This document shows positions 9,103 through 33,287 of a DNA stretch of 64,000 bases, piece after piece. Position 1 is the first letter of the stretch. Each line of letters starts with the position of its first letter. The notes beneath the pieces were generated by a model, which had not been told where the DNA came from, did no database searches, and saw only the letters and a program-made list of their open reading frames with translations. This DNA comes from an uncultured Opitutia bacterium (lineage in GTDB: Bacteria; Verrucomicrobiota; Verrucomicrobiia; Opitutales; Opitutaceae): the NCBI GenBank assembly GCA_903840415.1, contig CAIMFY010000118.1, forward strand, positions 1 to 64,000. The letters run 5' to 3'. The position numbers and the translations under genes were made by a program.

Positions 9103-10149
9103 TCAAGGAGATAGATATTTCGCGAACCAATCGAACGTGCGCTTCATGCTGTCGCGGGCTTCCGGCGTATCGGCGAACGGAAACTCGTGACCGCCGGGGG
9201 CGAGTTCATAGAGTTGTTCGTCATAGGTTTTGCCGTAAGCTTTCAGTGCCTCGATCACGCGCTTGTTGTGCAGTTGATAAGGGACAGTCTTATCGCCGGT
9301 GGTTGAGAGCAGGAGTACTGGCGTCTCGATTTTTTCGACGAAGAAGGCCGGCGAGACCGCGATGTAGGCGGGAAGGTTTTTGTCGGGCAGCTTGCCGCCA
9401 TAGTTTTTCTGGCTGGTAATATCCTGACGACGGGCCTCGGTTTTGTAGCCCATAAACGAGACGAGATCGCTCAGCCCAGCGATGCCAACCGCCGCTTTGA
9501 AGCGCTTCGGTTCCACCTCCAGCGCGCGCAACTCTACCATGCCGCCACGACTGTGGGCGAAGATGCCCAGCCGGGCCGGATCGACGTAATCCTTGCCGGC
9601 GAAATAAGCGGCCGCGGCCAGCACATCCGCGAGATCTGTGACCCCATAGTTATTTTCGTAGATGGTCTCACCGTGACCCGAACTGCCGCGATATTCGGGG
9701 TAGATGACGACATAACCGCGTTGCACGGCTGCTTCGATCCAGGGAAACCATTGCGGCGTGAGCTGGATGTGCGCGCCACCATGCACGAAAACGAGGGCGG
9801 GATATTTTTTGCCCGCCGTGAGATTGGCGGGCGTGAAAATCTCCGCGGGAATAGTTTCCTTGTCGGCCGTGCTGGTGGCGAACCAGACCTGCTGCAGGTG
9901 AATGCGCCCGGCGTATTCCTGTTGGAACCTAGAGGCGATAAGCTCGGTTTTAAGCCCATAGACCTCTTGCATGAGCAACGCGATCTGACCGCCGACATCC
10001 TTCGGATCGCGGCTCAGGAAGTTCGTGAGTTCGCCTTCCGCTGGCGCCGTTGTCGTCTCTGCACCTGACAACGAGAACGCAGGCCCAATTGCTGCGAAGG
10101 CCAGAATGGTACCGAAGAAGGATCGGTGAAAAAATCGGGATGTAATCAT
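9103..10149 (-). CDS. Secreted alpha/beta hydrolase, S9 prolyl-oligopeptidase-like
   Basis: This 348-residue protein has a signal peptide (TILAFAAIGPAFSLSGA) and one alpha/beta hydrolase domain: KKYPALVFVHGGAHI (oxyanion-side HGG), GYVVIYPEYRGSSGHG, nucleophile elbow AHSRGG, acid in TTGDKTVPY and His in APGGHEFPF. It lacks the beta-propeller of full S9 peptidases, so it may be a short peptidase or esterase acting in the periplasm. It starts 50 bases after the TonB receptor and is likely the last gene of the ggt-receptor operon. The decayed copy downstream shows it was duplicated. Confidence 0.85.
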   Translation of the reverse strand: MITSRFFHRSFFGTILAFAAIGPAFSLSGAETTTAPAEGELTNFLSRDPKDVGGQIALLMQEVYGLKTELIASRFQQEYAGRIHLQQVWFATSTADKETIPAEIFTPANLTAGKKYPALVFVHGGAHIQLTPQWFPWIEAAVQRGYVVIYPEYRGSSGHGETIYENNYGVTDLADVLAAAAYFAGKDYVDPARLGIFAHSRGGMVELRALEVEPKRFKAAVGIAGLSDLVSFMGYKTEARRQDITSQKNYGGKLPDKNLPAYIAVSPAFFVEKIETPVLLLSTTGDKTVPYQLHNKRVIEALKAYGKTYDEQLYELAPGGHEFPFADTPEARDSMKRTFDWFAKYLSP

Positions 10150-10199
10150 GATGAAGAGAAGTTTGGTTCCGGCGCAGATTTATCCGGTGGAAGGGTCGC

Positions 10200-12326
10200 T
10201 CAGAAGTTGGCCGAGAGACTGAGCTTGGCCAATCGGGGGGCCGTCACGCCGAGCAGGCTCGCACCCGACACCGCCCAGGCATTTTTGTCGGTGAGGTTGT
10301 CGCAGTTGAGCCGCACGGAATAGGAAATGTTGCCGAGCTTGAGCCGATAGCGCAGCCCGGCGGAATAAGTGGTGTAGCCGCCGATATAACCCTGATCGGT
10401 ATTGTTGACGGGGCGACGACCGACGTAGTAAGTGCCGACAGAGAGGCTGAGGTCTTTCACGGGCGTGGCCCATTCGACGAAGCCCGATCCGGTGTAACGG
10501 GCGGTGCCTTCCGGGGTCTTGTTGAGGGTGGTGGCGTTGAGCGCCTTCGTCTGGCGGGCATCGAGCGTCTGGCCAGAGACGATGAGCGACACATTCTTGG
10601 CGATTTCGCCGGACGCAAACAGCTCGAGCCCGCGGAAGCGCGCGAGACCGTTCGGCACGAAGGTGTTCGTCGCGGGATCGGTAAAGGCGCTGGGGCGCTC
10701 GATTTGATAAACGCCGAGTTGGAGCAACAGTCCGCCGAAGAGCTTCGCCTTGCTGCCGACTTCGTATTGGGTCGAGGTCAATGGCGGCAACACGGAGCCG
10801 GCGTTGACAGTGCCGATGGGAGCATTGCCACCGGCCTCGAGCCCCCTGAGGTAGCTCGTGTAGATGGAGGTGTCTGCCGTGGGCTTGAAGGACGCCGAGA
10901 ACATCGGTTGTGTCTGACCTTTGGTGACGTAATTGGTGGTCGCTGTTGTGCTGATGTAGTCTGTGTCGCGCACGCCGACGATCAGTTGCACTCGCTCCTT
11001 GAAGGCCGACATGCGGTCGGTGGCGTAGTAGGCAAAGTCGAGAATGCGGGTCGGCACATGCGTGATGGTCGTCGTGGTCGTCGCCAAAACAGGAACCGGA
11101 ACCGGATTGTAGTAGTTCTGGCTGAAGTTGACTGAGCCTTGCTGGGGTGCGTCGCTCCGGCGAGTGTTGCCCGTGAGGCCGAACGATACGTCGTGCCGGA
11201 TCGGGCCCGTGAGAAAGCGGCCGAAAATCTCGCCGCGGTAATTGGAATTGCGGTAGTCTTGGCCGGGGTAATAATTGATCTTCAGGGCGCCGGCGCCGGT
11301 GGTGATGTTGGTAAACGTGAAGGGGGCGTAGATACGATTGCGGTTAGTTTCGGCATTGCCGGCTTCGACGAAGACGGTCCACTGCGGGGAGATGAGGTAG
11401 TCGAGGCGCGTCCACCAGTTCGTCATGAAGGCATCGTAGCGCATCCAACTGCCGCCGATGTTTTGGGTGTTGGGCGGAAGCGGTGGAGGGGTGACGACTC
11501 CGGCGACTGCTGCCGGCAGCGTGATTGCGGCTTGCTCAGTGACGTTCTTCTTGAGGTGTTCGACATCGGCGCGGAACGTCAGCTTCTGGGTGATGCGCCA
11601 GTCGGCGGCGAGGGAGGCAAACGATCGGTCGCCGGCAAAATTATCGATTCCGGTTTCCTCTTTGTTGGAGGCGGCATTGACGCGGAGACCGTATTTGCCT
11701 TCCGCGCCGAAGCGGCGGCCGACGTCGATCGCGCCGCCGTAGGCGCCGGCTGAGTTGGCGGTAAAGGTAAGTGTCGTGATCGGATCGGGAGTGGCGCGCT
11801 TCGTGACGAGGTTGATCACGCCGCTGGGCGGCACGAAACCATAATAAAGCGAGGCGGTGCCCTTGAGCACCTCGACGCGCTCCTTGTTCTCGAGCGCGAT
11901 GTCCGCGAGGTTGATGATGGGCAGCGAGCCGTTAAGCCGGTAGTTGCCGCGATTCTCGATCACAATGCCGCGAATCGCGAGATTGTTGTAGGTGGCGCCG
12001 GTGAGTTGCGACTGCGTGACGCCGGCGGTGTTCTTCAGCGCGTCGAAGAGGCCGCGGGCGTTTTGAGCCTCGAGCACCTCTTTCGTGAGCACGTTGATGG
12101 TGAGCGGCACATCGACCGGATTCATGTCGCGAAACGCGCCCATCTGCACGCTTTCAGCCTGATAGCTCTGCGTCTTTGCGGCGGAGACGTTGAACGCCTC
12201 AAGGGTGACCGGCGGTAATTCCTTGGTGGCTTCGGAGGCCGGTGTCTGGGCCTGAGCTGACACCATCAGTGCAAACAACGCGCCTGAGATGGCGAGGGTG
12301 TGGCAGTTTTTTTTCACGGGGTTCAT
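10200..12326 (-). CDS. TonB-dependent outer-membrane receptor, siderophore type
   Basis: This 708-residue protein has a signal peptide ending in SAQAQ. A plug domain follows (VPLTINVLTKEVLEAQNARG, NNLAIRGIVIENRG, ERVEVLKGTASLYYGFVPPSGVINLVTK) and then a beta-barrel ending in an aromatic Phe (LSLSANF), as outer-membrane barrels do. The plug is closest to siderophore receptors, but substrate prediction from this is unsafe. No STN signalling domain is present. Its neighbours, gamma-glutamyltransferase and a secreted hydrolase, suggest the cargo may be a peptide or glutathione-like compound rather than iron. It is the middle gene of three on this strand. Confidence 0.92.
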   Translation of the reverse strand: MNPVKKNCHTLAISGALFALMVSAQAQTPASEATKELPPVTLEAFNVSAAKTQSYQAESVQMGAFRDMNPVDVPLTINVLTKEVLEAQNARGLFDALKNTAGVTQSQLTGATYNNLAIRGIVIENRGNYRLNGSLPIINLADIALENKERVEVLKGTASLYYGFVPPSGVINLVTKRATPDPITTLTFTANSAGAYGGAIDVGRRFGAEGKYGLRVNAASNKEETGIDNFAGDRSFASLAADWRITQKLTFRADVEHLKKNVTEQAAITLPAAVAGVVTPPPLPPNTQNIGGSWMRYDAFMTNWWTRLDYLISPQWTVFVEAGNAETNRNRIYAPFTFTNITTGAGALKINYYPGQDYRNSNYRGEIFGRFLTGPIRHDVSFGLTGNTRRSDAPQQGSVNFSQNYYNPVPVPVLATTTTTITHVPTRILDFAYYATDRMSAFKERVQLIVGVRDTDYISTTATTNYVTKGQTQPMFSASFKPTADTSIYTSYLRGLEAGGNAPIGTVNAGSVLPPLTSTQYEVGSKAKLFGGLLLQLGVYQIERPSAFTDPATNTFVPNGLARFRGLELFASGEIAKNVSLIVSGQTLDARQTKALNATTLNKTPEGTARYTGSGFVEWATPVKDLSLSVGTYYVGRRPVNNTDQGYIGGYTTYSAGLRYRLKLGNISYSVRLNCDNLTDKNAWAVSGASLLGVTAPRLAKLSLSANF

Positions 12327-26759: not shown

Positions 26760-27863
26760 GTGCCTGCCACTCTCGCGCTTTCCACGCTCTGCGAAAACCC
26801 GCACCGGCGCACCGGGCTCAGCACGTTCTTTTCCGAGTTCGTGGCACACGCGCGGCGGCAGTTTCCGACGGTGAACTGGATCGTGTTCGCCGGGCCGCGG
26901 CAGCCGTGGGCGATGTCCGATCCGGGCGTGGCGATCGTGCGCGATTTTTCCGCCAACGATCGGCGCGGGGCGCGGCTCTACGCGGATCATTTTCTGGTCG
27001 CGGCGGCGGCGCGGCAGCGCGGGGCGGCGGCGTTGCTCACCGTGGGTTTCGTGCCGTTGCGGACGGCGGGGCTGCCGATCGTGATGCACGTTTTTTCGCT
27101 GCATCACCGGCGGACCGGCGGGGGATGGGGCGCGTTTTATCGACGTGCGATGGTGGCGCGCGGCTTGCGCCGGGCGGCGCTGGTGATCGCGAACTCGCAG
27201 TGGACGGCGGCGCAGCTCGGCGCCGGGCGCGCGCCGGTGCTCGTGAGTCACGAGGGCGTGCAGCATGAAAAATTTTCGCCCGTCGGCGCGCACGGCGGCG
27301 CGGGCCTGCCGCCGGAGTTTCTGTTGTGGACCGGAAATTTCTACGCCTACAAACGCGCCGAGCTCGCCCTCGCCGCCTACGCGTGGCTCGCGCCCGAGCG
27401 GCGCGCGCGTTTTCCGCTGGTGCTGGCGGGCGGCGACTGGTCCGGCGGTCGCGCGCGGGCCGAGGCGGTGGCGCAGGCGCTCGGCGTCGGGAGCGACGTG
27501 CGTTTCCTCGGCTGGGTGGACGATGCGGCGCTGCCCGCGCTCTACCGCGGCGCGCGGGCGCTGGTGCTCGCGACCAGCGAGGAAACCTTCGGTCGCAGCG
27601 TCGCCGAGGCGATGGCCTGCGGCTGCCCGTGCGTGGTGCAGGATCTGCCGGTGTTGCGCGAGGTGACGGACAGCGCGGCGCTGTGGTGCGATTTCACCGA
27701 CCGCGCGACCGCTGCCGCAGCGTTGGAAAAAATCTGCACCGACGACGCCCTGGCGACGCGGTTGCGCACCGCCGGGCTGCGGCGCGCCGCCGATTTCAGC
27801 TTTGAAAAACTCGCGCGCGAGCGTGTGGCGGCGATCCTGGAGCGGTTGTCTATTTCCGCATGA
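26760..27863 (+). CDS. Glycosyltransferase family 4
   Basis: The GTG at 26760 starts the protein just before LALSTLCENPHRRTGLSTFF, the region that fits the family's N-terminal strand, and gives 367 residues. An ATG at 26649 would add 37 Arg/Ala-rich residues and overlap the divergent flippase start, leaving no promoter space. Later marks are VIANSQWTAAQL, FLLWTGNFYAYKR, DVRFLGWVDDAALPALYRGA and EETFGRSVAEAMACGCPCV, the GT-B donor site. It should transfer a sugar in exopolysaccharide synthesis. It overlaps the exosortase gene by ATGA. Confidence 0.85.
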   Translation: MPATLALSTLCENPHRRTGLSTFFSEFVAHARRQFPTVNWIVFAGPRQPWAMSDPGVAIVRDFSANDRRGARLYADHFLVAAAARQRGAAALLTVGFVPLRTAGLPIVMHVFSLHHRRTGGGWGAFYRRAMVARGLRRAALVIANSQWTAAQLGAGRAPVLVSHEGVQHEKFSPVGAHGGAGLPPEFLLWTGNFYAYKRAELALAAYAWLAPERRARFPLVLAGGDWSGGRARAEAVAQALGVGSDVRFLGWVDDAALPALYRGARALVLATSEETFGRSVAEAMACGCPCVVQDLPVLREVTDSAALWCDFTDRATAAAALEKICTDDALATRLRTAGLRRAADFSFEKLARERVAAILERLSISA

Positions 27864-29530
27864 ACGCGCCGGCCGATTCCAAACCCAACCGCTGGTGGCC
27901 GGCTGCGGCCTGTGCGCTGGTGGGGGTCATCCTGTTTCAGTTTTTCGGCAACGCCACCCACGGCTACAACAAGACCGATTCGATGTTCTGGTGGTGGATT
28001 AGCCAGTGGCTCGATCCGGCGGCGGAGACGGAGCACGGCTGGTTGATCCTCGGGCTGAGTGGTTGGCTGCTTTGGCGAAATTTGCAGGAAGGTAGGAGCC
28101 TGCTGGCAAGCGAGTGCTCAGAGACTCGCCTGTTAGGAGACTCCTACACGAGCGCGGCGGCAGCGATGATTGCTGGACTCGCGCTGCACGCCGTGGGTTT
28201 CGCGGTGCAGCAGACGCGTGTGAGCATCATCGGATTTTTGATTTTCAGCTGGGGCGGGCTGCGGCTGTGGGGCGGAGGGCGCTGGAGCGGCGCGGCGGCG
28301 TTTCCGCTCGGGTTCATGGCGTTTGCGATTCCGCTGAGCGCGTTCGACACAATCGGATTCTGGCTGCGCATGGCGGTGATCGATGCCAGCGCGGGGCTCG
28401 CGCATGCGGCGGGGATCGGGGTGTTGCAGAGTGGCACGCAACTCGTCGCGCCCGACGGCCGTTACCACTACGACGTGGCGGCGGCGTGCTCGGGCGTGCG
28501 TTCGCTCACGGCGCTGGCGGCGCTGTCGCTGCTCGCGGGCTACCTGAATTTTCGCTCGTGGTGGCGGCGCGGCGCACTGCTGCTGCTGTGTTTTCCGCTG
28601 GTGTATCTCGGCAACGTCGCCCGAATTTCGTCGATCGTGCTGGCCGCGCAATGGGGTGGGCAGGCGTGGGGCGAACATGCACACACCGTCATGGGCTATG
28701 GCGTCTTCGCGATCGTGCTCGGCGGCGTGCTCGGTGCGGCAGGCGCGATGCAGCGTTGGTGGCCGGAGATGTCGGAAGAAATTGAAAGTGAAAAAGGGAA
28801 AGAAGAAACGGAATCGCCGGCAAAGGCGCGCGGCGCCTGGAACATCGCGGCCGCGATCGTTGCGCTGGCGGTGGGCGAGATGTTTTTTCTCCACCACCTC
28901 GCGATGCTTCCGCCGCGCGGCGCGACGGGCGTGCTGCTCGCGCCAGACGAAAAAAATCCCGCTGAGCTCCCGGCGTTTCTTGGGATCGAGTGGACAGGCC
29001 GGCCGGTGGCGGTGACGCCGACGGAGCGCGAGATTCTGCCGCCCGACACGGGATTTTCCCGGGAGATCTATTTCAGTCACCGCGATCCGTCGCAGCAGGT
29101 TTTTCTTTCGATCGTGCTGAGCGGGCGCGATCGGACGTCGATCCACCGGCCGGAGCTCTGTCTCGTGGGCCAAGGTTGGACGATTACGGGTCGCGGCGAA
29201 CATCGCTTCGATTACCCGTCGCGAAGCGAAGCGAGTTTTTCGGCGACGCTGTTGCGTGTCCAGCGCGAGGCGCCGGCTTTGCGTGGGCCGACGATTGTGC
29301 CGCAGCTGACGGCATATTGGTTTGTGTGCAGCGATGCGGTCGTCGCGACGCACTGGCAGCGGCTCGTGCATGATGCGTGGAACCGGTTCACCCACGCCCG
29401 CACCGATCGCTGGGCCTATGTGTTGATGCAGACGGACGCGGCCGATGGCGAGACGGCGGCGCTCGCGCGGATGCAGGCGGTGTTGCGCGAGACGCTGCCG
29501 GCATTTCAGCGGCCGTTGCCGGGCCTGTAA
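27860..29530 (+). CDS. Exosortase fused to an EpsI domain
   Basis: This 556-residue protein has an eight-helix exosortase domain (to about residue 300) with the transpeptidase-like triad: Cys210 in AAACSGVRSL, Arg255 in GNVARISS and His275 in AHTVMGY. After a charged linker (SEEIESEKGKEETESPAK) and one helix comes an EpsI/DUF3485 domain with HRPELCLVGQGW. Exosortases cleave PEP-CTERM-like tails and send proteins to the surface; EpsI is usually encoded separately, so a fusion is compact. A 20-residue stretch near residue 78-97 comes from a palindromic repeat. No PEP-CTERM substrate was noticed in this window. Confidence 0.9.
   Translation: MNAPADSKPNRWWPAAACALVGVILFQFFGNATHGYNKTDSMFWWWISQWLDPAAETEHGWLILGLSGWLLWRNLQEGRSLLASECSETRLLGDSYTSAAAAMIAGLALHAVGFAVQQTRVSIIGFLIFSWGGLRLWGGGRWSGAAAFPLGFMAFAIPLSAFDTIGFWLRMAVIDASAGLAHAAGIGVLQSGTQLVAPDGRYHYDVAAACSGVRSLTALAALSLLAGYLNFRSWWRRGALLLLCFPLVYLGNVARISSIVLAAQWGGQAWGEHAHTVMGYGVFAIVLGGVLGAAGAMQRWWPEMSEEIESEKGKEETESPAKARGAWNIAAAIVALAVGEMFFLHHLAMLPPRGATGVLLAPDEKNPAELPAFLGIEWTGRPVAVTPTEREILPPDTGFSREIYFSHRDPSQQVFLSIVLSGRDRTSIHRPELCLVGQGWTITGRGEHRFDYPSRSEASFSATLLRVQREAPALRGPTIVPQLTAYWFVCSDAVVATHWQRLVHDAWNRFTHARTDRWAYVLMQTDAADGETAALARMQAVLRETLPAFQRPLPGL
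28092..28147. repeat. Palindromic REP-like doublet inside a coding frame
   Basis: GTAGGAGCCTGCTGGCAAGC at the left faces an inverted copy at the right (minus strand GTAGGAGTCTCCTAACAGGC). Both end in GCGAG and are separated by ten bases. The 56 bp lie within the exosortase gene and keep its frame, adding a hydrophilic segment between predicted helices. The two halves are imperfect copies of one unit, as in bacterial REP doublets. Confidence 0.65.
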
Positions 29531-33207: not shown

Positions 33208-33287
33208 TTGCCCACGGAACACACGGAACACACGGAAAAAAGTTTCGGCTTTCTGGCTTCCGTGTATTCCGTGTGTTCCGTGGGCAA
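33208..33287. repeat. Palindromic repeat of the TEHTEHTE type
   Basis: Bases 33208-33237 and 33258-33287 are reverse complements with one mismatch over 30 bp, around a 20-base loop. Each arm holds three 9-base units (CACGGAACA and its complement TGTTCCGTG), which in one frame read T-E-H-T-E-H-T-E. It sits in the divergent gap between the phosphatase and exonuclease genes and runs into the start of the latter. Similar palindromes recur in many bacterial genomes. Confidence 0.85.

Follow-up and report, generated by a model that had tools for sequence, protein, structure and literature searches.

An exosortase/EpsI fusion gene with an in-frame REP doublet in its TM2-TM3 loop, at a site where relatives carry tandem seven-base arrays

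An inverted doublet of a GTAG-type REP unit (a REPIN) lies in frame within the exosortase gene of the 64,000-nucleotide stretch of DNA analysed here (the window), in a loop between helices TM2 and TM3 that is occupied in many relatives by other repeats, mostly tandem arrays of period 7. We read this REPIN, with a probability of roughly two in three, as one episode of a lineage-by-lineage overwriting of a tolerant exosortase loop by repeats. One expects repeats to avoid genes; here a single loop of a conserved enzyme carries arrays at a higher density than intergenic DNA, with units that differ between genomes. The features of the window on which the analysis turns are collected in Table 1.

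Table 1. Features of the exosortase gene in the window, with the basis for each; GTAGGAGCCTGCTTGCAGGCGA is the commonest form of the unit among the matches listed from the genomes searched.
Feature	Position	Strand	Basis
Decayed GTAG-type REP doublet (REPIN), coding for residues 78-96	28092-28147		Sequence, recurrence in the genome, window scan, RNA fold
First REP unit, GTAGGAGCCTGCTGGCAAGCGA	28092-28113	+	2 differences from GTAGGAGCCTGCTTGCAGGCGA
Second REP unit, GTAGGAGTCTCCTAACAGGCGA	28126-28147	-	4 differences from GTAGGAGCCTGCTTGCAGGCGA
Fusion of an exosortase with a C-terminal EpsI-type domain (556 aa; frame intact)	27860-29530	+	PF09721, PF11984, TIGR02914
Coding sequence for the variable TM2-TM3 loop (residues 76-100), where repeats turn over recurrently in relatives	28085-28159	+	Alignments, model, array counts
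Variable linker from exosortase to EpsI domain, about residues 300-324	28757-28831	+	Alignments; period-7 arrays in relatives, not in the window species (score 4)

The doublet spans 56 bp: a 22-bp unit (GTAGGAG-N-CT-N-CT-NN-CA-N-GCGA) is followed by a second, inverted copy, the order being GTAGGAGCCTGCTGGCAAGCGA, a 12-bp spacer and the reverse complement of GTAGGAGTCTCCTAACAGGCGA; the two copies differ from each other at five positions. Its GTAG start, palindromic form and inverted pairing place it with the GTAG REP superfamily and the REPINs, in agreement with the first-pass annotation of this DNA, in which the two halves had been taken for one REP unit in two orientations. When the 64-kb window was scanned at up to 3 mismatches, the unit was matched at the two places of the doublet only (0.16 matches expected), and two or more matches were obtained in 2 of 100 shuffled windows. 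Folded as RNA, the doublet gave a single hairpin of -31.9 kcal/mol (z -4.8) that none of 200 shuffles matched; the fold with DNA energies was weaker (z -3.1, matched by 3 of 200 shuffles). A chance palindrome is ruled out by the window scan against shuffles and by the RNA fold. Two further inverted repeats were seen in the window, one at 1981-2075 (arms of 44 nt, 93% complementary and separated by 7 nt), and one at 33208-33287 with 30-nt arms (97% complementary) composed of ACGGAACAC-like units.

The reading frame that holds the doublet is not broken by it, as had been noticed at first pass, and the gene, which has a glycosyltransferase gene on one side and an RNase Y gene on the other, encodes an exosortase fused to an EpsI-type domain. 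PF09721 (exosortase) matched with E 8.9e-41 and 140.4 bits against a cut-off of 25.7, which assigns the protein to Exosortase/EpsH; PF11984 (EpsI-type C-terminal domain) matched with E 7.3e-20, and TIGR02914 (EpsI) with 49.6 bits against a cut-off of 42.8. The score for TIGR02602, an NCBIfam exosortase subfamily, was 93.5 bits and below the cut-off of 105.55, and membership in XrtD (TIGR04152) was rejected at 134.4 bits against a cut-off of 400. The invariant residues were present in the alignment. The predicted structure was confident overall (pLDDT 90.3); stretches of at least 3 residues with pLDDT below 50 were confined to residues 1-5 (N-terminus), 89-92 (loop) and 310-316 (linker before the EpsI domain), and the mean for residues 81-90 was 55. 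In the alignments with relatives and in the model (structure alignment of 54 rows, being the window and 53 of 55 references, with 12 loci excluded by name earlier and L098 and L124 absent), the doublet lies in the TM2-TM3 loop, and the placement of the insertion between helices, proposed at first pass, is borne out. By the positive-inside rule, and with helix 161-183 taken as non-spanning, both this loop and the linker would be cytoplasmic.

A palindrome at this place might mark a decaying gene or a misassembly. Metagenome-assembled contigs can err at repeats, and in one relative, a metagenome-assembled genome from Lake Pavin (L089, about 10001-10200), the loop and TM3 are affected by a deletion and a change of frame. 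The intact frame, the invariant residues and the confident model all speak against a pseudogene or artefact in the window, as does the finding that loops are also repeat-rich in the single-contig genomes G004 and G021, and we regard this explanation as extremely unlikely.

The loop was compared across 96 loci (17 + 79; L044-L050 were excluded from the set), which gave 84 genes after 12 duplicates with identical last 400 residues were dropped; the 80 loops of at least 40 nt were scored, and those of L089, L112, L143 and L145 were dropped. In the window the REPIN codes for 19 of the 25 loop residues. About 20 residues had been expected to be extra at this point, and the element does encode nearly that number, but the loop is not simply longer, being 25 aa in the window species and 26 aa, of unrelated sequence, in a species of the same genus. 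Loops of 16 aa are the most frequent, 9 aa shorter than the window loop, within a range of 14-95 aa for loops of at least 40 nt. The window loop holds its REPIN without a period-7 array (score 2), and many species have differing repeat-like sequences at the loop. Three of these recur in their own genomes by whole-genome pattern counts, in which some matches overlap or fall on both strands: the loop pattern of G001 (35 partly overlapping matches in G001), the loop palindrome of G004 (52 matches in G004) and the loop palindrome of G016 (7 matches at 5 places in G016, loop included). The reversed control gave 0 matches in these three genomes and was non-zero in some other genome of the G001-pattern search. 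The loop array of G031 had no second match in the G031 genome (87% complete).

The strong predicted RNA hairpin of the window doublet would suit a role for the REPIN as an RNA or DNA hairpin, in pausing or in mRNA stability, with the protein segment being incidental. Only 11 of the 80 loops have an inverted-repeat score within the top 5% of their gene, so no common hairpin has been kept, and the two units of the doublet have already diverged from each other; such a role therefore appears very improbable.

The REP unit is dispersed in the genome from which the window comes, at low copy. A genome search for the unit had been proposed in the first-pass annotation, and it revealed more than a single occurrence: at up to 2 mismatches, the draft genome (G000; 4.91 Mb, 124 contigs, 98% complete) has 7 unit matches, forming three inverted doublets (on contigs C82, C118, which is the window, and C74) and a half unit (C47), with 0 matches for the reversed-pattern control. 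One doublet is that in the exosortase, one is near the N-terminus of another frame, and the third is outside any conserved gene by the frames seen. The second of these (C82:19127-19186; about 3127-3186 of L054) is in frame within the gene of a PSCyt1/PSCyt2/PSD1 protein, close to the N-terminus, where it separates the first ten residues from the apparent remainder of the signal peptide; a downstream start codon is possible. At up to 1 mismatch the unit was found in 13 of the 57 genomes searched, G000 included (reversed-pattern control 0 in all), and the six richest have 101, 52, 36, 25, 24 and 19 units. The copies elsewhere in G000 and in relatives rule out a repeat confined to the exosortase gene. 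In G018, with 52 units, 14 of the 15 REP groups examined (25 of the units) lie outside any open frame with a coding appearance on both flanks, as judged by our own approximate codon score. The relative L081 has a window-type REP unit in the equivalent loop, in reverse orientation and beside a heptamer array; of the 79 loci, the only other with this unit is L086, in its flank.

A RAYT transposase, which had also been proposed as an object of search, was not found in the G000 draft by any of three queries (PF01797, NF047646 and the RAYT of the relative G030), and two queries gave no Y1_Tnp or RAYT match in the REP-rich G018. A Y1_Tnp/RAYT gene is present in G030, with a doublet of the window-type unit on either side. 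Overall, the first reading of the doublet stood as to its unit, frame, loop and recurrence; the RAYT, and the simple addition of 20 residues, did not.

What had been missed is that the loop is recurrently hit by repeats, with period-7 arrays in 26 of 80 loops and other palindromes in others. These 26 loops have a tandem period-7 score of at least 12 and hold heptameric tandem repeats of several copies; at the same threshold every other period from 2 to 15 was found in 0 or 1 loop, except for 14, the double, in 15. When codons were shuffled within the loops for 200 rounds, the mean number of loops reaching this score was 0.01 and the maximum 1, and since 7 is not a multiple of the codon, the period is a property at the level of the DNA. 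The loop outscored all other windows of the same length in its own gene in 35 of the 80 genes with the linker excluded, and in 30 with the linker included. Array densities were counted at loci of at least 9 kb (56 of the 84), using approximate gene calls from our own simple codon model, and were 6.04/kb in the loop (24 arrays), 1.97/kb in the linker (10 arrays), 0.107/kb in intergenic DNA (16 arrays), 0.025/kb in the remainder of the exosortase gene (2 arrays) and 0.005/kb in other genes (4 arrays); the variable N-terminal tail of the exosortase gene had 0 arrays in 3,915 nt. With segments of equal length (53 loci, again of at least 9 kb), arrays were present in 20 loops versus 0.77 expected from intergenic and 0.09 from genic DNA. 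The loop thus exceeds intergenic DNA 56-fold per kb and 26-fold by equal-length segments (19- to 36-fold across thresholds 10 to 18), and its arrays are 200- to more than 1,000-fold denser than those of other genes. The linker is array-enriched as well (score of at least 12 in 10 of the 80 genes, 78 of which had a linker long enough).

In a sample of 1.2 Mb from one single-contig genome (G021), with approximate gene calls of the kind described above, array densities were 0.113/kb in intergenic and 0.002/kb in genic DNA; period 7 was the commonest but less dominant, with 27 arrays versus 20 of period 9 and 13 of period 6, and the unit of the G021 loop itself was found in 2 of 25 intergenic arrays. 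Eleven of the 16 intergenic heptamer arrays counted at the 56 loci share a single location, 1.67-2.01 kb downstream from the exosortase gene (in L075, L076, L077, L086, L090, L095, L098, L099, L140 and L145), which in the window is about as far away as the end of the RNase Y gene. Arrays were rare in the other exosortases examined. Among 30 loci from the best phylum-wide PF09721 matches, one of which is another exosortase of the family member G004, there was no period-7 array scoring 12 or more (scores of 10 or 11 in five), and among 20 chosen loci of other exosortases from six same-family genomes, 15 of them also matched by the window protein, only L208 has arrays (two, one of them at the apparent linker position).

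The arrays differ from one genome to another. The 26 array loops hold 30 arrays, 20-54 nt long and often imperfect, with 26 distinct units; at one mismatch the units form 10 clusters, and one unit is common to three loops. On a 77-row tree made with the loop and linker columns removed (a quick search, 7 of 84 rows left out), array presence changes at least 17 times, some of these changes being threshold effects, as for L075 and L077, whose loops are alike and fall on opposite sides of the cut-off. The genes of L030 and L087 are 83% identical and their loops are unrelated (identity 0.22 for 23 versus 72 aa, where the ceiling of the measure is 0.32). The contrast in turnover between array and array-free pairs is not clean: array-free close pairs have loop identities of 0.75 (L109/L147) and 0.88 (L121/L123), L104/L108 (92% identical), a pair with arrays, has 0.68, and L116/L129 (74% identical), which is array-free, has 0.33. 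Loops with arrays have a median length of 25 aa, versus 18 aa for those without, and in 10 of the 26 fewer than 14 aa of non-array sequence are left, so the arrays partly replace the loop; too little non-array DNA remains in these ten for a simple insertion into a loop of at least 14 aa.

Period 7 in a coding frame has the geometry of a frameshift switch. A contingency switch, in which changes of heptamer copy number would shift the frame and so move the exosortase between on and off states, would fit that geometry, and the enrichment far above intergenic DNA suggests something more than tolerance. The arrays, however, are short and often imperfect, each of the 26 array loops shares the frame of its flanking helices in the consensus sequences (0 out of frame), and related genomes differ in the unit and not in copy number alone; we consider a switch improbable. 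Frame changes were seen at the linker in L139 and L146.

The rival that we weigh most seriously, at somewhat less than even odds, differs from overwriting by repeats only in the source of the arrays: the loop DNA would be unconstrained and would generate arrays in place by 7-base slippage, the REPIN being a separate, ordinary insertion. It is favoured by the diversity of the arrays, of which few share a unit, by the G031 array being unique in its genome, and by the arrays composing rather than lengthening the loop in 10 of 26 cases; a polymerase-slippage hypothesis for heptamers is cited in the available sections of PMC4692102. Against generation in place, a single 7-base step breaks the frame, and steps of three units or compensated changes would be needed; the G001 loop pattern recurs genome-wide, two of the 25 intergenic arrays in G021 share the loop unit, and slippage does not itself account for the excess over intergenic DNA. 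Nine loop arrays (6 loci) have some array in their flanks, and in none of these cases does a flank unit match the loop unit. The opposite view, that import of a dispersed repeat lies behind every array, is weakened by the unique G031 array and by these non-matching flank units.

We return to the overwriting of a tolerant loop as the preferred reading. A GTAG-type REPIN, presumably mobilised by a RAYT, would have landed in the TM2-TM3 loop of the exosortase/EpsI fusion, and the RAYT would since have been lost from the window lineage. The REPIN may have been retained on account of its open frame and of a loop tolerant of very varied hydrophilic sequence. The loop of the orthologues would have been overwritten again and again, mostly by tandem 7-base arrays and sometimes by palindromic units, with the catalytic membrane core staying conserved meanwhile. 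On this best-supported reading, heptamer arrays, which may be imported or made in place, occupy most of the other repeat-bearing loops. Tolerance would explain why repeats survive here, but not their density above intergenic DNA, the empty N-terminal tail or their rarity in the other exosortases examined. Tolerance alone predicts a density no greater than that of neutral intergenic DNA, and the excess in the loop counts against it as the sole cause; the excess might be due to local slippage, to selection in favour of change or to a switch. It could also be, and we think this rather unlikely, that the loop is an actively rewritten, diversity-generating locus, in which repeats arise or are captured well above the neutral level and change is favoured by selection; if so, the changing loop could, for example, vary or switch surface-protein sorting. 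The loop offers a natural assay of the origin of heptamer arrays and REPINs, in which events can be placed between sister species and are bound by the frame, and a test of the idea that protein loops draw raw material from repeats.

Among the results listed by searches of one open-licence library, no title or start of an abstract concerned repeats in an exosortase; the in-frame REPIN itself adds a case to an already described type, GTAG REPs in genes. The comparisons that follow refer to the available sections of the papers cited. Like the Pseudomonas REPIN-RAYT systems (PMC3116915), the element is an inverted REP doublet, with a RAYT beside doublets in the relative G030; unlike them, G000 has three doublets only, with no RAYT found. 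Rickettsia palindromic elements (PMC10969869) are likewise palindromic and in frame in protein genes, and differ, as compared by description, in being about 150 bp long and in unrelated genes. The arrays resemble the heptameric tandem repeats of Xanthomonas and Nostoc (PMC4692102) in having 7-base units, over-represented in bacteria, that vary among close relatives. Those repeats belong to particular unit families and lie for the most part between genes (89% and 93% in two xanthomonads, 68% in Anabaena/Nostoc), whereas here many units are concentrated in one coding loop. A close likeness is to the intragenic GTAG REPs of Opitutus terrae, which has the most of them in the survey of PMC3733652: GTAG units, in dimers, in frame and of 20-30 aa, in a verrucomicrobial relative. 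A RAYT is often associated with GTAG REPs there but may be missing, and the authors suggest that intragenic inserts may be neutral in flexible linkers and loops. In the survey, as far as the available sections describe it, the insertions are at various sites, with one recB pair at about the same site; here the loop of one orthologue group has been struck repeatedly by unrelated repeats, mostly heptamer arrays.
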